Assembly (NCBI GenBank): GCA_026389265.1
Contig: JAPLIE010000043.1
Coordinates: 1-64,000 of the forward strand
Source of the DNA: Cyanobacteriota bacterium
GTDB taxonomy: Bacteria; Cyanobacteriota; Cyanobacteriia; PCC-6307; Cyanobiaceae
DNA length: 64,000 nucleotides
Direction of reading: 5' to 3'
Below are positions 37,904 to 46,303 of this stretch, in pieces; position 1 is the stretch's first letter, and every line of letters begins with the position of its first letter. Under the pieces are notes generated by a model, which was not told the DNA's origin, did not search any database, and saw only the letters and a program-made list of their open reading frames with translations. The position numbers were made by a program, and so were the translations under genes.

Positions 37904-39240
37904 GCTCCGCCATCCCGTTCCCCGTGCCCAGCTTCAACCTCAGCGGCGGCCTGCCGGTCATCGCCTGCAGCCATCCGGGGCCTGAAATCCTCGCGGCACG
38001 GTTGGTGATCCGGGGCGGCAGTGGCGCCGATCCGCTGCATCGGCGGGGTGCCCACCAGTTGCTGGCCGGAACCATGACCCGTGGCTGTGGCCACCTCGAC
38101 GCCGACGCCCTCGCCGATCTGGTGGAGGGGGCTGGGGCCGCGTTGCGGGCCGAAGCCCATGAGGATTCCCTGGTGCTCGGCCTCAAGTGCGCCGCCACGG
38201 ACACCCCGGATCTGCTGCCGCTCCTCCTCGCCATGGCGCGGCGACCCCTCCTGGCCTCGGACCAGGTGGCCATCGAGCGGCAGCTCAATCTCCAGACCCT
38301 GCAGCGCCAGAAAGAAGACCCCTACCAGTTGGCCCACGACCAGCTGTTGCGCCAGCTCTACGGCGAAGGCCCCTACGGCCACGATCCCCTCGGAGTTGAG
38401 ACTGAGCTGAAGGCGATCTCGGCCGATCTGCTCGCTGATCTAGCGGTGGGTCTGGGTCGAGAGGGCGCCGTTCTGGTGCTCACCGGAACCCTGCCTGACA
38501 ACCTCCATTCCCTGCTGGAAGACTCCCTGGAGGGCCTTCCTTGGGCCACCCACCTGCCCCTGGCCTCGCCAGCGGCAGGGTTACCGCCTTCCGAACCAGG
38601 TGGCGTGCCAACGGCCGGACCCAGCCTGAGGGCCCTGGAGCAGGACACCGAACAGCTCGTGCTGATGCTGGGGTGTCCCACCGTGCCGCTCGGCCATCCC
38701 GATGCCCTGCCCCTGCGGCTGCTTCAGACCCACCTCGGACTGGGCATGTCGAGCCGCCTGTTCGTGGTGATGCGGGAGGAACGGGGCCTGGCTTACGACG
38801 TGGGGGTGAGCCTGCCGGCCCGCTGCGGTGCCGCACCGTTCGTGATGCACCTCTCTACCTCCGCCGACCGGGCCGAGGAGGCCACGGCCTGTCTGCTGGA
38901 GGAATGGCAACGACTGCTGGAGGAGCCCCTGGATTTGGCGGCGCTGGAGCTGGCCCGCGCCAAATACATCGGCCAGGACGCCATGGGGCGCCAGACCTGC
39001 TCCCAGATCGCCGAGCGCCTGGCCCTGGTGCTGAGCCACGGCCTACCCGCCGACCATGTGGAACGGTGCCTGGCTCGGGCCGCTGAGCTGGATGGCGCTG
39101 CGCTGCGCCAGGCCGCCCGATGCTGGCTACCACAGGCCAGCCTCAGCCTCGTTGGGCCGGCAACGGCCCTGGCCTCAGCCACGGCCGCTTGGGAGGCAGC
39201 CGGCGGAATCAGTCTCAGTCGCTCGCGGACGCCGGCCTGA
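37900..39240 (+). CDS. M16-family peptidase-like protein lacking the zinc motif
   Basis: This 446-residue M16-fold protein matches the first M16 gene in layout. Where HxxEH is expected it reads RRGAHQLLAGTMTRG, so the zinc ligands and catalytic Glu are missing. Other family traits are kept: EAHEDSLVLGLKC, RQKEDPYQLAHDQLLRQLYG, PYGHDPLGVETELKAI and LGLGMSSRLFVVMREERGLAYDVG. It is likely the non-catalytic partner, as with alpha/beta subunits elsewhere in the family. The start is ATG at 37900. Its 3' end overlaps the convergent SipA-like gene by 26 bp. Confidence 0.88.
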   Translation: MSSAIPFPVPSFNLSGGLPVIACSHPGPEILAARLVIRGGSGADPLHRRGAHQLLAGTMTRGCGHLDADALADLVEGAGAALRAEAHEDSLVLGLKCAATDTPDLLPLLLAMARRPLLASDQVAIERQLNLQTLQRQKEDPYQLAHDQLLRQLYGEGPYGHDPLGVETELKAISADLLADLAVGLGREGAVLVLTGTLPDNLHSLLEDSLEGLPWATHLPLASPAAGLPPSEPGGVPTAGPSLRALEQDTEQLVLMLGCPTVPLGHPDALPLRLLQTHLGLGMSSRLFVVMREERGLAYDVGVSLPARCGAAPFVMHLSTSADRAEEATACLLEEWQRLLEEPLDLAALELARAKYIGQDAMGRQTCSQIAERLALVLSHGLPADHVERCLARAAELDGAALRQAARCWLPQASLSLVGPATALASATAAWEAAGGISLSRSRTPA

Positions 39241-39490
39241 GGTCCTGCACCGCCAGCAGGAAGGTGCCCCGCCGGAAGCGCACGGCCAGCTGGTCGCGAG
39301 GGCGGATCTCGCTCACCGCCCCCACCTCGCCGGTGCTCACCAGATCTGGGGGACGCAGCATGGGCATCGGATCGGCCGTCTTGAGGTAAGGAACGCTCTG
39401 CAGCAGGCAGACGCGATCACCCACGGCGAAGCGAACCGTTTCTGCCGGCTCGGTTGTCTCCTCACGATCTCCCTGGTCGGGCTGCTTCAC
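39215..39490 (-). CDS. sipA: SipA-like protein (DUF3148)
   Basis: This 91-residue SH3-like protein belongs to DUF3148. Recognised segments are VGDRVCLLQSVPYLKTADP, the near-invariant PMPMLRPPDLVSTGEVG, and VRFRRGTFLLAVQDLRP. In Synechococcus elongatus SipA binds the sensor kinase NblS and affects light and nutrient stress signalling. No NblS gene is in the window. It starts at GTG 39490, and its C-terminal codons overlap the end of the second M16 gene on the opposite strand. Confidence 0.85.
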   Translation of the reverse strand: MKQPDQGDREETTEPAETVRFAVGDRVCLLQSVPYLKTADPMPMLRPPDLVSTGEVGAVSEIRPRDQLAVRFRRGTFLLAVQDLRPASASD

Positions 39491-39559: not shown

Positions 39560-40129
39560 TTGCGGGCCCTTGCCACCTGGAGCGGAGCGATCGCCGGCCT
39601 GCTGTTGATCGTGGCCGGGGGTCTGATCCCCGCCTTTTTGGCTCTTCCAGGCCCGGAAGGGTGGAGCCTCCGTCCCCTGGGGATCACTCTCCAGGTGCCC
39701 GCCCTGCTGCTCACGGCGTTGGTGGCTGGTCCCCGCAGCGCCCTGCTGGCCGCGGTGGCCTATCTGAGCGTGGGGCTGTTTCAGCTGCCGGTGTTCCAGC
39801 AGGGTGGTGGGATCAGCTATCTGGTGGATCCGGGATTCGGCTATCTGGCGGGCTTCATTCCAGCGGCTTGGATCACGGGACGACTGGCTCGCCAGCGTGG
39901 CATGGACGATCCCCTCGCCCTCAGCGCGGCGGCAGGGGTTGGACTTCTGGTGCTGCAGCTCTGCGGTCTGCTCAACCTGCTCATCGGCGCCCTGGCCGGA
40001 CGCTGGGGCGCCAGCCTGGTGCCGCTCCTTGTGGGTTATGGACTGGCGATCCTTCCCCAAGCGCTGCTGTGCTGCGCCGCCGGAGTGGTGGCCTGGGTGT
40101 TGAGGCGGGTGCTGCTGGTGCCATCTTGA
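39560..40129 (+). CDS. bioY: biotin transporter BioY-family S component
   Basis: This 189-residue membrane protein has about six helices and the BioY pattern: LGITLQVPALLLTALVAGPR, AAVAYLSVGLFQLPVFQQGGG, and LVDPGFGYLAGFIPAAWITG. BioY binds biotin in the membrane and can work alone or with an ECF energising module, which is not in this window. The start is TTG at 39560 with a GGAGAAA ribosome-binding site 6-12 nt upstream. It lies 10 nt before lspA on the same strand and opposite the SipA-like gene. Confidence 0.9.
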   Translation: MRALATWSGAIAGLLLIVAGGLIPAFLALPGPEGWSLRPLGITLQVPALLLTALVAGPRSALLAAVAYLSVGLFQLPVFQQGGGISYLVDPGFGYLAGFIPAAWITGRLARQRGMDDPLALSAAAGVGLLVLQLCGLLNLLIGALAGRWGASLVPLLVGYGLAILPQALLCCAAGVVAWVLRRVLLVPS

Positions 40130-40139
40130 GAGGCTGAGC

Positions 40140-40751
40140 GTGCCCGATCCCATTCCAAGCCCAACCACCGCCACGCCGGGATCCCCGGCTCCAGGCCCTG
40201 GATCGCCCCGATCCCGCAACCACAGGGCCCTGCCGCTGCTCCTTGCCCTAGCGGTGCTGATCGCGGACCAGTGGAGCAAGTCGTGGGTGCTCAGCCACTT
40301 GGAACCGGGAAGGCTGTATTCCTTCCTGCCTGGTCTGCTGGCCCTGCAACGGGTGAGCAACACCGGCGCCGCCTTCAGCCTGTTCCGAGATTCGGCGCAG
40401 ATCCTCGCTGTGGTGAGTCTGGCGGTGAGTGCCGCCGTGCTGCTGTGGATCCTCTGGAAGCCGCCCCATGGCCTGTGGCCCAGCCTGGCCCTCGGTTTCC
40501 TGTTGGGAGGTGCGGCCGGCAACGGCCTGGACCGCTGGAACCATGGAGCGGTGACGGACTTTCTGGCCACCGTGCCCTTCTCCTTCCCCGTGTTCAACCT
40601 GGCCGATGTGGCCATCAACCTGGCGGTGGCCTGCTTCGCCCTCGACCAGCTGGCGGCCTTCCTGCCGCGACGATCCAGCCCCAGCAGCCCCCGATCGCGG
40701 GGAAGTCAGGGTTCCGGAAGGGGCGCTAAAGCCGGCCGTAACCATGGCTGA
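40140..40751 (+). CDS. lspA: signal peptidase II (prolipoprotein)
   Basis: LspA cleaves the signal peptide of lipid-modified prolipoproteins in the inner membrane. The protein has 203 residues and four helices. The conserved regions are LIADQWSKSWV, VSNTGAAFSLF, the first catalytic Asp in GNGLDRW and the second in NLADVAINLAV. A Pro/Ser-rich N-terminal ~25 residues and a basic C-terminal tail are extras. It starts at GTG 40140, after GAGAGGC, 10 nt past bioY. It overlaps the FHA-PBP gene by 8 nt, so it is probably translated together with it. Confidence 0.93.
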   Translation: MPDPIPSPTTATPGSPAPGPGSPRSRNHRALPLLLALAVLIADQWSKSWVLSHLEPGRLYSFLPGLLALQRVSNTGAAFSLFRDSAQILAVVSLAVSAAVLLWILWKPPHGLWPSLALGFLLGGAAGNGLDRWNHGAVTDFLATVPFSFPVFNLADVAINLAVACFALDQLAAFLPRRSSPSSPRSRGSQGSGRGAKAGRNHG

Positions 40752-42939
40752 GCGCCCCGGCCCCATCCTCTCCATCCATCTGGACCACAAGCTGGAGCGG
40801 CGGGTTCCCCTGCACGGCAGCCTCTATCGGATCGGCCGGGATCCAAACGCCGAGGTGCTGCTCGAGCAGGCGGCAGTGAGCCGTCGCCATGCCCTGTTGG
40901 AACGGCGCGGCAACCACTGGCTGCTCAGCGATGCAGGGTCCACGAACGGGTTGTGGTGGCAGGGGCGCCGGGTGCATGAACTGCTGCTGCGCGATGGGGA
41001 TCGGGTGCGGCTGGGGCCGCCCCAACTGCCCGATCTGCCCGAAATCAGCTTCCACGCCGCCGAGTCCGATCGTCGGCTGCGGCGGATCCGACTGGCAATC
41101 CTGCTTCCTGCCGCACTGGCCGGAGGAGGCCTGTTGCTCTGGCTTCTGGGGACCGTGTTGGTGCCGATTCGGGGAAGCCTGGCGACCGTGCGAGGGCCGC
41201 TGCTGCTCTACGACCGTGCCGACCGGCCGATCGCTTCGGCCGATGACCGCCGCCACCGGGAACAGGGGAAGCTCGAGGGCTATCCGCGGGTGCTGATCGA
41301 TGCCCTGCTCGCGAGTGAGGACACTCGCTTCTGGTGGCACCCCGGCATCGACCCGATCGGCACCGGTCGCGCCCTGGTGACCAACCTGCTGGGCGGCCGG
41401 GTGCTGGAGGGCGGCAGCACCCTCACCCAGCAACTGGCCCGCAGCCTCTACCCGGCCCAGGTGGGCGAAGGCGAGACCCTGGGTCGTAAGGGGCGGGAAC
41501 TGCTCGTGGCCCTGCAGCTGGAGGCGCGCTTCAGCAAGACCGATCTGCTCCTGAGCTACCTGAACCGTGCCTTTCTGGGTGCGGGCTGGGGCTTCGAGGA
41601 TGCCTCCCGCCGACTGTTCGGCAAGCCTGCCGGGACTTTGTCCCTGGAGGAGGCAGCCCTGCTGGTGGGTCTGCTCTCCTCTCCCTACGGCCACGATCCC
41701 TGCAGCCGCCCCCAGGAGGCCCTGGAGGCCCGCAACGCCGTGCTGCACAAGATGGCTGACACGGGCCGCATCTCCGCCGATCAGGGCCGCCGCGCCCGCC
41801 GCCTGCCAATCCGCCTCAGCGTTGACGCCTGCCGCGGCAGTGAACGCCGGGCCATGCCTTACTACAGCGACCAGGTGCGACGGGACCTCGATGCGCTGGT
41901 GGGGCCGGATGTGGCGGCGGAAGGGAACTACCTGGTGGACACCCACCTGGATCCGGCCCTGCAGGAGCTGATCGAGCGGTTGCTGCGGGAGCACATCGAG
42001 GCCAGTCGCTCCCTCGGCGTGTCGGAGGGGGCAGTGGTTGTTCTCGACAGCCGCAACGGCGGCATCCTGGCGATCGTGGGAGGCCGCGACTACCGCCAGA
42101 GCCAGTTCAACCGGGCCTCGATGGCCCTGCGTCAGCCGGGGAGCACCTTCAAGCTGGTGCCCTACACGGCGGCGATCGAACGGGGGGCCAGGCCCGGTGA
42201 TGGGGTGAACTGCGGGCCCCTCACCTGGCAGGGTCAGGTCTTTGATAGCGCCTGCCGCGGCACGATCAGCCTCCGGCAGGCCCTGGCGATCAGCAGCAAC
42301 ACCGCCGCCCTGAGGCTGGCCCGGCGGGTGGGTCTCGACGCGGTGGTTCACAAGGCCCGGGACCTGGGCTTCAGCACACCGCTCGATCCTGTGCCTGGCC
42401 TGGCCTTGGGCCAGAGCGAGGTGACTCTGCTGGAACTCACCGCCGCCTATGCCGCCGTGGCCGACAACGGCCTGTGGCATGCCCCGAGCACCATCCGCCA
42501 TCTCACCGACGCCGAAGCCTGCCCGGCCGGGAAAGAGGAGAAGGGTTGCCGCAGCGTGCCGAAGACCGCACCGCCCCCCAGGGGTGCCCGAGCCAAGGAT
42601 GGGAAGGTCGCACCCGGCAAGCTCGAGCCCGGCGGCGTGGCCGGCACGGCCGGACGCCGGGCCATGACCCCGGCCACGGCGAAGCTGATGCAGGAGTTGC
42701 TTCGGGGCGTGGTGAACGGGGGCACCGGTACGGCCGCCTGGGTGAGCGGCGGGGTGTGGGGAAAGACGGGCACCACCAACGACGGCCGCGACCTCCTTTT
42801 CGTGGGCGCCGTGCCCGATCGCCACTGGGTGATGGGGGTGTGGCTGGGGAACGACGACAACAGGCCAAGCCGATCGACCAGCCACCTGGCCGCTGAACTC
42901 TGGGGTCGGATCGTTCGCTCCTCGGTGGCCTCCCCCTAA
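40744..42939 (+). CDS. FHA-domain-fused bifunctional penicillin-binding protein
   Basis: This 731-residue class A PBP polymerises and cross-links peptidoglycan. It has a cytoplasmic FHA domain at about 8-100 (YRIGRDPNAEVLL, SRRHALLERR, DAGSTNGLWW), one membrane helix at 116-140 and a GT51 transglycosylase with catalytic Glu192 in SEDTRFWWHPG. The transpeptidase has SxxK at Ser467-Lys470 (STFK), SSN at 517-519 and KTG at 674-676. All catalytic residues are present. The FHA domain binds phosphothreonine in other proteins, so activity may respond to a Ser/Thr kinase. It overlaps lspA by 8 nt and the GTPase gene by 1 nt. Confidence 0.93.
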   Translation: MAERPGPILSIHLDHKLERRVPLHGSLYRIGRDPNAEVLLEQAAVSRRHALLERRGNHWLLSDAGSTNGLWWQGRRVHELLLRDGDRVRLGPPQLPDLPEISFHAAESDRRLRRIRLAILLPAALAGGGLLLWLLGTVLVPIRGSLATVRGPLLLYDRADRPIASADDRRHREQGKLEGYPRVLIDALLASEDTRFWWHPGIDPIGTGRALVTNLLGGRVLEGGSTLTQQLARSLYPAQVGEGETLGRKGRELLVALQLEARFSKTDLLLSYLNRAFLGAGWGFEDASRRLFGKPAGTLSLEEAALLVGLLSSPYGHDPCSRPQEALEARNAVLHKMADTGRISADQGRRARRLPIRLSVDACRGSERRAMPYYSDQVRRDLDALVGPDVAAEGNYLVDTHLDPALQELIERLLREHIEASRSLGVSEGAVVVLDSRNGGILAIVGGRDYRQSQFNRASMALRQPGSTFKLVPYTAAIERGARPGDGVNCGPLTWQGQVFDSACRGTISLRQALAISSNTAALRLARRVGLDAVVHKARDLGFSTPLDPVPGLALGQSEVTLLELTAAYAAVADNGLWHAPSTIRHLTDAEACPAGKEEKGCRSVPKTAPPPRGARAKDGKVAPGKLEPGGVAGTAGRRAMTPATAKLMQELLRGVVNGGTGTAAWVSGGVWGKTGTTNDGRDLLFVGAVPDRHWVMGVWLGNDDNRPSRSTSHLAAELWGRIVRSSVASP

Positions 42940-44645
42940 TGCTCCCCAAGCGCCTTTGGCTCTGGCTTGCGCTGGCCTTGCTGCTGCTGGTGGTGGTCGC
43001 GGTGGTGCTGCAGGCCTTCAATCAGCTGCTCTGGCAACTCAGCTACTGGCTTCCCGGCTGGCTGATCGGTCCGCTGGTGTTGCTGGTGCTCGCCGCGATT
43101 GGACTTGCCCTGGCCCAGGTGGGCCTGCCCTGGCTCCAGGCGCTGCGCCACGGCAAAGGCACCGCTCCGGGCCGTCGCGGTGAGGCCCCGCTGAACCTGG
43201 AACGGCCCGCCAGCCGTCGGGAGGCGGCGGAACGCAATCTCGACGCGATCGACCGCACCCTTGAACGGGTGCGCGACGCGGTGGAGCGGGAGGCGCTGCA
43301 GCAGGAGCGGATCCGCATGCAGACCGAGCTGGAGCGCGGCGATCTGCGGATCGTGGTCTTCGGTGGCGGATCCGTGGGCAAGACCTCCTTGATCCGGGCC
43401 CTGCTGCAGGAGCTGGTAGGGAGCGTGGGAGCTCCGATGGGGTCGACCACCAGCTCCTCCTCCGATCGCTACCGCCTGCGGCTGCGGGGGCTTGAGCGGG
43501 CGGTAATCCTGGAGGACACCCCCGGCATCCTCGAATCGGGTGCCGAGGGCCTGCGGCGTGAGGAGCTGGCCCGGCGTCAGGCAGCCCGGGCCGATCTGCT
43601 GCTGCTCGTGGTGGATGGCGACCTGCGGGCCAGTGAGCTGGCGGTGTTCGACACCCTGGCAAGTCTTGGCAAACGGCTGCTGCTGGTGCTCAACAAGTGC
43701 GATCTGCGGGGCGAACGGGAAGAGGAACGGCTGCTGGAGTTGCTGCGGCAGCGCTGCGGCAAGCGAATCAGCGCCGAGGATGTGATCCCGGCCAGCGCCT
43801 CCCCTCAGAGCGTGCCCATGCCAGGCGGCAGGCCGCTCCAGCCCGAACCTGAAGTGGAGCCCCTGCTGCGCCGCATCGCGGCGGTGCTCCATGCCGATGG
43901 GGAGGAACTGATCGCCGACAACCTGCTGCTGCAGTGCCGCCAGTTGGGCGAAGCAAGCCGTCAGCTGCTCGATCAGCAGCGTCGCCGCGATGCCGAGGCC
44001 CTCGTGGATCGGTACATGTGGATCGGTGCCGGGGTGCTTGCGGTCACCCCCCTTCCCGGCCTCGATCTTCTCGGCACCGCAGCGGTGCAGGCCCAGATGG
44101 TGATCGAGATCGGCCGTGTCTACGGGGTGAATCTGAGCCGCAGCCATGCCCAGGATCTCGCCCTCACCGTGGGCCGCAGCCTGGCGGGCCTCGGCCTGGT
44201 CAAGGGCGGGGTGGCGCTGCTGGGCTCGGCCCTCAGCCTCAACCTGCCGGCCCTGCTGGTGAGCCGGGCGGTGCAGGCGGTGAGCGCGGCCTGGCTGACC
44301 CGCCTGGCGGGCCGCAGCTTCATCGTGTATTTCCAGCAGGGCCAGGACTGGGGCGATGGCGGCCTGCCGGAGGTGCTTCAGCGCGAATACGACCTCAACC
44401 GCCGCGAGGGAGTGCTGAAGCGTTTCCTGGAGGCTGCCTACCGCCAGGTGGTGGAGCCCCTCAAACAACAGGCCCTGCGTCTTCCGCCCCGACCGGACGA
44501 GCGATCCGAGCCACTTCGTTCGCGAGCGGCGGAGCCGAAGGAGCGCCCGATCCGGGAAGCGAACGCGCTTGAGAGGCTGGAACCGCTTCCGCGAAGGCCT
44601 CCTGAGGCGGGGGAAGCAGAGGACCGGAGCGATCGAGCACGCTGA
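42939..44645 (+). CDS. membrane GTPase with DUF697 domain
   Basis: The 568-residue protein has two N-terminal helices (LALALLLLVVVAVVL, LLVLAAIGLALAQVGL), a short coiled region and a G domain: G1 FGGGSVGKTS near 145, G3 LEDTPG and G4 LNKCDL. A C-terminal DUF697/YcjF-like region follows (MWIGAGVLAVTPLPGLDLL, GVALLGSALSLNLPALLVS). This architecture is common in cyanobacteria and of unknown function. It shares 1 nt with the FHA-PBP stop (TAATG). The last ~60 residues are Arg/Glu/Pro-rich and lie opposite the small membrane-protein gene. The stop may have shifted outward at low cost. Confidence 0.9.
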   Translation: MLPKRLWLWLALALLLLVVVAVVLQAFNQLLWQLSYWLPGWLIGPLVLLVLAAIGLALAQVGLPWLQALRHGKGTAPGRRGEAPLNLERPASRREAAERNLDAIDRTLERVRDAVEREALQQERIRMQTELERGDLRIVVFGGGSVGKTSLIRALLQELVGSVGAPMGSTTSSSSDRYRLRLRGLERAVILEDTPGILESGAEGLRREELARRQAARADLLLLVVDGDLRASELAVFDTLASLGKRLLLVLNKCDLRGEREEERLLELLRQRCGKRISAEDVIPASASPQSVPMPGGRPLQPEPEVEPLLRRIAAVLHADGEELIADNLLLQCRQLGEASRQLLDQQRRRDAEALVDRYMWIGAGVLAVTPLPGLDLLGTAAVQAQMVIEIGRVYGVNLSRSHAQDLALTVGRSLAGLGLVKGGVALLGSALSLNLPALLVSRAVQAVSAAWLTRLAGRSFIVYFQQGQDWGDGGLPEVLQREYDLNRREGVLKRFLEAAYRQVVEPLKQQALRLPPRPDERSEPLRSRAAEPKERPIREANALERLEPLPRRPPEAGEAEDRSDRAR

Positions 44646-44778
44646 CCACAAGGAGGTAGAGCACCGCGATCAGGATCGAGAGGGCACCGGTGAGGATCGC
44701 CACCCAGCGGGAACGGCGATCCCGGCCCGGGTCGCGACGCGGAGCAGAGAGGGGTTCCGGCCCGGCTGGGTCGTCCAT
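44461..44778 (-). CDS. small single-helix membrane protein, 105 aa
   Basis: This 105-residue protein begins at ATG 44778 (MDDPAGPEPLS). A basic stretch (DPGRDRRSRW) precedes one membrane helix (VAILTGALSILIAVLYLLVV) and the motif LDRSGPLLPPP. The remaining ~45 residues are Ala/Pro-rich, low complexity and read opposite the GTPase C-terminus. The core through LLPPP looks conserved from memory, but no function is known. If both genes are real they overlap tail-to-tail by 185 bp. Confidence 0.6.
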   Translation of the reverse strand: MDDPAGPEPLSAPRRDPGRDRRSRWVAILTGALSILIAVLYLLVVSVLDRSGPLLPPPQEAFAEAVPASQARSLPGSGAPSAPPLANEVARIARPVGAEDAGPVV

Positions 44779-44836
44779 GAGAGGGCCGCAAGGCCGGCGG
44801 TCGAGCCCCGGCATGTTGGCAGACGCTGTGGCGGGG

Positions 44837-46303
44837 TCAGCCGGGGGGTCCGGCTGCTTCGTCGCAGCTGCCCAGCACAATCGCGCTGAGGGCCTCTAGG
44901 TGCTCGCTGCCAGTGTGGGGATTTCCCAGCACCGCCTTGAGATGGTGATGGCCTTGGTAATCGGGTCGCGACAGCATCAATCCCTCCCGCAACAGCAGCT
45001 GGCGGGTCCGCTGGCTCCAGAGGTCACAGGCGTGGCGGTCGAGACCCTCAGGCCGGAAGGCCAGCAGGTGGAAACTGCCGCCGAGCACCCGCAGCCGTCC
45101 GTCGCTATCGAGCAGGTGCTGGAGCTGACGACGACGGCCAATGGCCCCATCGAGCACAGCGGCGATGCCTTCCAGGCCCAGCTGTCGCAGACCCAGCCAG
45201 AGCTTGAGCACCTCCGCCGGTCGCGTGCCCTGTAATCCGGACTCGCCGCCATGGCAGCCAACCCGGCTTGGCTCCATGTAAGGAAGACCGGTGGCGAAGG
45301 TGCTGCTGAGAGCGGTGGGGGAGGCGAGCAGCAGCAGCGAGGAGGTCTTGGTGATCCCCAGCAGCTTCTGTGGATTCACGGTCACCGAATCGGCCAGATT
45401 GAGGCCGGCAACACGGTGGCGATGGGAATCGGCAAGGGCGAAGACCGCACCGATCGCCCCATCCACATGGAGCCACACCCCATAGTGATGGCAGAGGGCG
45501 GCGATGGCGGGTAGGGGATCCACCGCTCCCCGCACGGTGGTGCCGGCGGTGGCCACCACGGCGATCACGGGTACGCCACGGCTGCCCAGGTGGGCCAGAT
45601 CCTCGCCGAGGCGGGCGGCATCCAGGCGGCCTGCGGCATCCACGGCGATCGAACGCAAGGCACCCGGTGGCAGGCCCATCACCCGCATCGCCTTGGCCAG
45701 GGAGACATGGGCGTCGGCACTGCAGAGGACAACCGCCTCGCCCACGCCATCGAGGCCCCGCTGGTGGCGAGCCACCACCAGCGCCATCAGGTTGCTGAGG
45801 CTGCCCCCACTGGCGGGCACCCCTCCGGAACCGGGAGGCAGGCCGATCGCTTCGGCCAGCCAGCTGCAGAGGGCCTGCTCGAGCCGACTGAGGCTGGGGG
45901 AGAGTTCCTCGGCCAGCAAATTGTTGTTGAGGCCCGCCGCGATCAGGTCGCCCACCACCGAGGCAATCAGGGGGGGCGGATCGAGATGGGCCAGAGCCCC
46001 TGGGTGGTTGGGGTTGTAGGCCCCGAGCATGAGCTGCTGCACCTCGGCCAGCAAAGCGTTGTTGCCGATGCCATACAACCCGGGGGCCACGGGCGGCTGC
46101 ATGGCGAAGCCGGGAAGGGGTGGCTGGTGGCTGGCAGAGGCGAACCAGCTGCCCAACAGTGCCGAGGCGCCCTCAAGCAACCCCTGCAGGGCGGGATCGT
46201 GTGCCTGCGGATCGGGGAAGGGAAGGCCGGTCGTGGTGGAGCCCAGCTGGGGTGGCGAGGCTTGGGGCACGCTGACCAAGGGCGGCTCGTTCGGTGGGGG
46301 CAT
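44837..46303 (-). CDS. group II PLP-dependent decarboxylase (L-2,4-diaminobutyrate decarboxylase-like)
   Basis: This 488-residue pyridoxal-phosphate enzyme is of the glutamate/diaminobutyrate/aromatic amino acid decarboxylase fold. Seen are GIGNNALLAEVQQLMLGAYN, GGVPASGGSLSNLMALVVARH, cofactor contacts VVATAGTTVRGAVDPL and LHVDGAIGAVFAL, and the Schiff-base Lys in VNPQKLLGITKTSS. The Lys context NPQKLLG differs from the HKW form of many decarboxylases, so the substrate is uncertain. The start is ATG at 46303. An in-frame extension to 46453 overlaps tadA. It diverges from tadA across about 112 bp that hold a 12-bp palindrome. Confidence 0.85.
   Translation of the reverse strand: MPPPNEPPLVSVPQASPPQLGSTTTGLPFPDPQAHDPALQGLLEGASALLGSWFASASHQPPLPGFAMQPPVAPGLYGIGNNALLAEVQQLMLGAYNPNHPGALAHLDPPPLIASVVGDLIAAGLNNNLLAEELSPSLSRLEQALCSWLAEAIGLPPGSGGVPASGGSLSNLMALVVARHQRGLDGVGEAVVLCSADAHVSLAKAMRVMGLPPGALRSIAVDAAGRLDAARLGEDLAHLGSRGVPVIAVVATAGTTVRGAVDPLPAIAALCHHYGVWLHVDGAIGAVFALADSHRHRVAGLNLADSVTVNPQKLLGITKTSSLLLLASPTALSSTFATGLPYMEPSRVGCHGGESGLQGTRPAEVLKLWLGLRQLGLEGIAAVLDGAIGRRRQLQHLLDSDGRLRVLGGSFHLLAFRPEGLDRHACDLWSQRTRQLLLREGLMLSRPDYQGHHHLKAVLGNPHTGSEHLEALSAIVLGSCDEAAGPPG

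Follow-up and report, generated by a model that had tools for sequence, protein, structure and literature searches.

The window, a stretch of 64,000 nucleotides from a member of the Cyanobiaceae, holds a compact run of four genes on the forward strand in which the gene for an FHA-containing class A penicillin-binding protein (PBP) is embedded between lspA and the gene for a membrane GTPase (Table 1). The run begins with bioY, whose stop lies 10 nt 5' of the lspA start, and is flanked by a divergent gene for a SipA-like protein that scores 85.3 bits against the NCBIfam model RegSipA, below the cut-off of 100. The sequence-only reading had started the run at lspA; its gene positions and overlaps of 8 nt and 1 nt (TAATG, 42939, between PBP and GTPase) are exact, and the intact catalytic motifs and the FHA domain that it had noticed are indeed present, with the run being longer than it had said. 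LspA carries GN..D and FNLAD, and the GTPase GGGSVGKT, DTPG and NKCD. The 8-nt lspA/PBP overlap is confined to close relatives, other loci having variable spacing, and the PBP/GTPase junction measures -1 or -4 nt in 44 of 68 loci. The four genes from bioY to the GTPase gene are probably co-transcribed; the overlaps and spacing alone speak for a common message, since the promoter and terminator scan of the run gave nothing above shuffled sequences. A convergent open reading frame of 139 aa (44464-44880, minus strand) without Pfam match overlaps the GTPase gene at its 3' end; the central part of this frame recurs in the same position in genomes that lack the PBP.

Table 1. Genes and protein features of the bioY-lspA-PBP-GTPase run and its flank (positions in the window).
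Feature	Position	Strand	Evidence
SipA-like/CRR42-like small protein, divergent from bioY, conserved flank	39218..39490	-	PF11347, 92 bits
bioY, biotin transporter S component	39560..40129	+	PF02632, 93.5 bits
lspA, signal peptidase II	40140..40751	+	PF01252; TIGR00077, 91.7 bits (above the equivalog cut-off of 73.95)
Overlap of lspA stop and PBP start, 8 nt, ATGGCTGA	40744..40751	+	Sequence
FHA-containing class A PBP, 731 aa	40744..42939	+	Pfam domains, motifs, AlphaFold model
Cytoplasmic FHA domain, residues 28-91	40825..41016	+	PF00498, 61.2 bits
PBP membrane helix, residues 107-139	41062..41160	+	AlphaFold model
Glycosyltransferase GT51 domain, residues 162-337	41227..41754	+	PF00912, 158.6 bits; motifs conserved
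Transpeptidase domain, residues 429-721, STFK/SSN/KTG	42028..42906	+	PF00905, 100.1 bits
Membrane GTPase, Era-like G domain and DUF697	42939..44645	+	PF05128, 173 bits; PF01926, 48.2 bits

All three domains of the PBP exceed their Pfam cut-offs within one protein, and the motifs of a bifunctional class A enzyme are in place in both the glycosyltransferase (ED..F..H.G) and the transpeptidase domain. With 428.2 bits against the PBP1A family TIGR02074 (cut-off 508.75), the protein is by sequence a class A PBP outside this curated subfamily. The FHA domain has the residues of a phosphothreonine pocket (G-R, S..H and S(T)N-G), and G31, R32, S46, H49, D63, S66, N68 and G69 are invariant in an alignment of 146 PBPs (100 from Cyanobiaceae, 39 from outgroups and seven paralogues of the C6 type described below), so that the key residues read as intact from the single sequence are conserved throughout. 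The nearest solved FHA domains by sequence are those of Rv1747 (6ccd), EmbR, GarA and FhaA, and in the AlphaFold model (mean pLDDT 75.8) the FHA beta-sandwich reaches a pLDDT of about 87. Given the modelled membrane helix and the way in which class A PBPs usually span the membrane, the FHA domain is placed in the cytoplasm and the synthase domains in the periplasm; the wall synthase would hence read phosphothreonine on the cytoplasmic side.

The order of these genes is near-universal in PBP-bearing Cyanobiaceae and far from chance. From the divergent sipA-like gene to the GTPase gene it is complete in 29 of the 30 best order-level loci, with only sipA not visible within the fetched flank of the remaining one, and among testable loci of named relatives (including Cyanobium, Synechococcus, Vulcanococcus, RCC307 and others) sipA occupies the same place in 63/63, bioY in 65/65 and the GTPase gene in 65/65, with lspA upstream of the PBP gene in 63/69. 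Outside the family, lspA, often together with bioY, lies just upstream of an FHA-PBP gene in 12 of 38 cyanobacterial genomes, and the GTPase gene is found near the PBP gene in two of the 38 (G157 and G176), behind an RRM gene. As it recurs across family loci and distant cyanobacterial genomes, the order is considered old, conserved well beyond the Cyanobium and Synechococcus relatives among which the sequence-only reading had proposed to look. In a tree, the lspA-locus PBPs and the outgroup FHA-PBPs form one lineage with the C6-type proteins apart, which is consistent with vertical descent. Two side observations belong here, namely that the same gene for an RRM RNA-binding protein sits between FHA-PBP and GTPase in two distant families (L097:10577-10885 and L099:6609-6911), and that a record titled as a Bifidobacterium breve MAG (CALPNT020000001.1, L267) holds a Cyanobiaceae FHA-PBP locus and represents a mislabelled or contaminated bin.

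The second type of FHA-PBP is encoded in a cassette at G000:C6 (L070, 2224-9705), where its gene on the minus strand faces plus-strand genes for an FHA protein, a short Hanks-type kinase, a VWA protein and a PP2C phosphatase. About 33 of 150 genomes have inherited this self-contained phospho-signalling set, wall synthase included, as a single unit. In the C6-type FHA-PBPs (L070:2224-4851, minus strand) the ED..F..H.G motif of GT51 reads SE[DE].RFGWNSG, with His replaced by Asn, and GSTLTQQ reads GSGLTQQ; because of these changes glycosyltransferase activity may be altered.

A search with Pkinase and FHA models over 150 genomes of the order, 70 with and 80 without the lspA-locus FHA-PBP, found a kinase above the Pfam cut-off in all 70 FHA-PBP genomes. 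It is a single-pass transmembrane Hanks-type kinase of 734 aa (G000:C110:7144-9345; L104:7144-9348) encoded away from the PBP run, downstream of cysK, which adjoins the kinase gene in most loci. The kinase domain is followed by a Pro/Ala-rich linker, one membrane helix and a C-terminal domain without Pfam match; no Pfam domain besides the kinase domain, and in particular no PASTA domain, was found. In 41 of the 70 FHA-PBP genomes no FHA domain was found other than that of the lspA-locus PBP, and many of the 70 have no other strong Hanks-kinase match.

Presence and decay of the PBP, the kinase motifs and a putative docking motif in the kinase linker match across these genomes. No genome among the 150 has the PBP without the kinase, and the kinase is absent from 61 of the 80 PBP-less genomes (search at 1e-15). 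In the other 19 the kinase domain is decayed or missing in about 16, partly decayed in two and intact in one, the complete genome G021; an intact kinase without PBP may also be present in G265 and G269, both incomplete assemblies, and such cases weigh against the proposed pairing. The decay, read directly in 18 of these 19 genomes, took different routes: in G011, G102 and G106 the HGD loop is damaged (H to C, N to Q or H) and DFG deleted, in eight genomes of genus g9 the loop Asn is His, DFG has become DGG or EGG and the activation loop is missing, and in G025, G029, G058 and G087 the whole kinase domain is deleted, with the C-terminal domain persisting in all 18 copies. Early decay is seen in G005 and G028, where the loop Asn has changed to Thr or Ala and C-terminal fragments of the PBP (best E 2e-9) remain between lspA and the GTPase gene. 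Such remnants next to early kinase decay, together with the kinase without PBP in G021 and never the reverse, suggest that the PBP is lost first and that selection on kinase catalysis then lapses, an order expected if the PBP is the main output of the kinase.

The putative docking motif lies in the juxtamembrane linker, which is Pro-rich and otherwise hypervariable to the point of being unalignable. PBP-bearing genomes share there a stretch of 19 residues, with the pattern MP[DE]STGP..RADRT[VL]xL, in which Thr281 and Leu284 at +3 are invariant in 53 of 53 kinases; threonine followed by a hydrophobic residue at +3 fits recognition by FHA domains. The motif is missing in 15 of the 18 PBP-less copies, and Thr281 is replaced by Pro in G028. 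Of 20 kinases from distant cyanobacteria that likewise have an FHA-PBP, 14 show T-[VMIL]-x-[VIL] in the corresponding linker, with 1.1 expected by shuffling; because these kinases are partly paralogous and related, we treat the finding as supportive only. Many cyanobacterial Hanks kinases have a linker motif T-[VMIL]-A-V (L228-L247; for example, IATVAVGRPP and MQTMAVSR), a candidate for a general FHA docking site.

Taken together, we lean towards a mechanism in which the unlinked kinase would be the writer and would phosphorylate its own Thr281, most likely when prompted by its periplasmic C-terminal domain; phospho-Thr281, with Leu at +3, would be the docking site for the PBP's FHA domain, and docking would place the wall synthase beside the kinase or switch its activity. 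We infer that the kinase phosphorylates itself, that the FHA domain docks there, and in which direction wall synthesis is affected. A bolder version, held tentatively and at somewhat less than an even chance, is that in many Cyanobiaceae one kinase phosphorylates its own Thr281, on which the genome's only FHA domain found, that of the wall synthase, docks, the activity being selected mainly for this output. A PP2C phosphatase was considered as a further member of the pair and set aside, as PF13672 matches track the separate C6 cassette; outside C6-cassette genomes a PP2C of this type was not found, save in a few such as G132, which speaks against the mechanism.

The same pattern could have arisen without any direct link, with streamlining marine lineages independently shedding a surplus class A PBP and a dispensable kinase, an explanation we regard as rather unlikely. 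Losses of PBP and kinase do cluster in small genomes, the loss of Ser/Thr kinases in Prochlorococcus and marine Synechococcus and a general correlation of FHA domains with these kinases are already known (PMC2176072), and the independent events are few: the GTPase tree yields five independent contrasts, four to five of which agree and none of which opposes, and with about five independent losses a sign test (p 0.06-0.125) cannot reach significance. A Fisher test over the 150 genomes was not used as evidence, as the genomes are related, and co-occurrence of FHA-PBP and kinase in the outgroup was discarded as uninformative, because an FHA-PBP is present in nearly all genomes of the class sampled and kinases are many. 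Independent shedding accounts poorly, however, for the g8 trio G011, G102 and G106, which drop the pair yet keep the second cassette of FHA-PBP, FHA protein, kinase, VWA protein and PP2C, for decay restricted to the catalytic domain and the docking motif, for the PBP never occurring without the kinase, and for the recurrence of the pattern within the single genus g9, where the kinase is found in 5/5 genomes with PBP versus 4/29 without, three of these four being incomplete assemblies. The sequence-based case for a link between kinase and PBP rests on the conjunction of domain-specific decay by different routes, the Thr281 motif, the PBP remnants and the g8 trio.

Alternatively, the kinase might be an ATP-binding pseudokinase scaffold, with another enzyme phosphorylating Thr281 or the FHA domain reading another phosphoprotein, as in the mycobacterial MviN-FhaA set by PknB. 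The beta3 Lys is replaced by Arg (VALR) in every PBP-associated Cyanobiaceae copy read, a change described for pseudokinase families (PMC12599244), and a conserved alphaC Glu is not apparent in the copies read; because of this Arg, the chief concern for the proposed mechanism, the kinase is not classed as a canonical active Hanks kinase and its activity is uncertain. On the other hand, the catalytic motifs HGDISAANLL and LLDFG are recognizable, and the H.D Asp, the loop Asn and the Asp at the DFG position are kept in 53 of 53 kinases read directly from PBP-bearing genomes, with small variants at the DFG Phe such as DIG and DYG. Since, in addition, the outgroup homologues retain the Lys (CVLKEF) and many FHA-PBP genomes offer no second strong Hanks kinase as the writer, we consider the scaffold unlikely.

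A single message for LspA, FHA-PBP and GTPase as one control module, with kinase and GTPase jointly controlling wall growth, as the sequence-only reading had it, is very unlikely: tight junctions and the proximity of FHA-PBP, RRM gene and GTPase gene in two distant families speak for it, but the GTPase is present in 149 of the 150 genomes, 79 of them without FHA-PBP, it follows lspA directly in 11 of 11 PBP-less loci read, including those of Prochlorococcus-sized genomes, and outside the family it is rarely close to the PBP. The GTPase was therefore rejected as the main partner of the PBP. Of the proposed dual control, the kinase half is supported by co-loss and motif conservation, with its gene lying outside the run, and the GTPase half is not supported; it is probably the unlinked kinase, and not the adjacent GTPase, that tunes wall growth. 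LspA, BioY and the GTPase are encoded in conserved proximity to the PBP, and nothing found here gives them a role in the proposed phospho-control. Nor is the GTPase slr1306 itself: with 226.2 bits against family NF049994 (cut-off 490) it belongs to a related DUF697 subfamily, and because of this sub-threshold score the function of slr1306, named a putative CO2-concentrating component in the title of a reference (PMC5472144), is not transferred.

Tight gene overlap therefore says little about partnership: the PBP's evolutionary partner is encoded elsewhere, and the overlapping GTPase is independent. To our knowledge, little is known about the outputs of Hanks kinases in cyanobacteria, and the finding assigns to one of them a specific predicted target, phosphosite and reader in small, sometimes culturable genomes. 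If true, phosphothreonine reading would be built directly into a peptidoglycan polymerase. The literature searched gave no report of the FHA-PBP/kinase pairing and nothing direct on cyanobacterial FHA-PBPs, DUF697 GTPases or TerY-type triads.

Several known systems resemble the proposed docking in part. As in the control of PBPs by PASTA kinases in Firmicutes and Actinobacteria, a membrane Hanks kinase is linked to wall synthesis, but the kinase found here is of a type without recognizable PASTA domain and the link runs via an FHA domain that is part of the PBP itself. Docking of a canonical FHA pocket on kinases is equally a feature of GarA and OdhI, in one case through activation-loop recruitment by PknB according to a title cited in PMC6213207; these are, however, soluble metabolic regulators and not wall enzymes. 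In Rv1747-PknF of Mycobacterium tuberculosis the FHA domains sit on a membrane ABC transporter and are used by its kinase, mediating the phosphorylation of Rv1747 by PknF according to a reference cited in PMC6213207. There, as here, a membrane protein with cytoplasmic FHA is tied to a transmembrane Hanks kinase, in our case from motif and co-loss only, but the cyanobacterial effector is a class A PBP, the kinase is encoded at an unlinked locus, and docking is proposed at a juxtamembrane site outside the kinase domain. Finally, mycobacterial FhaA-MviN-PknB likewise links phosphothreonine reading by an FHA domain to peptidoglycan synthesis, the tail used for docking lying outside a kinase-like domain (PMC12599244, PMC11898655); unlike that system of a separate FHA adaptor and a pseudokinase docking protein, the cyanobacterial arrangement has the FHA domain within the wall polymerase.
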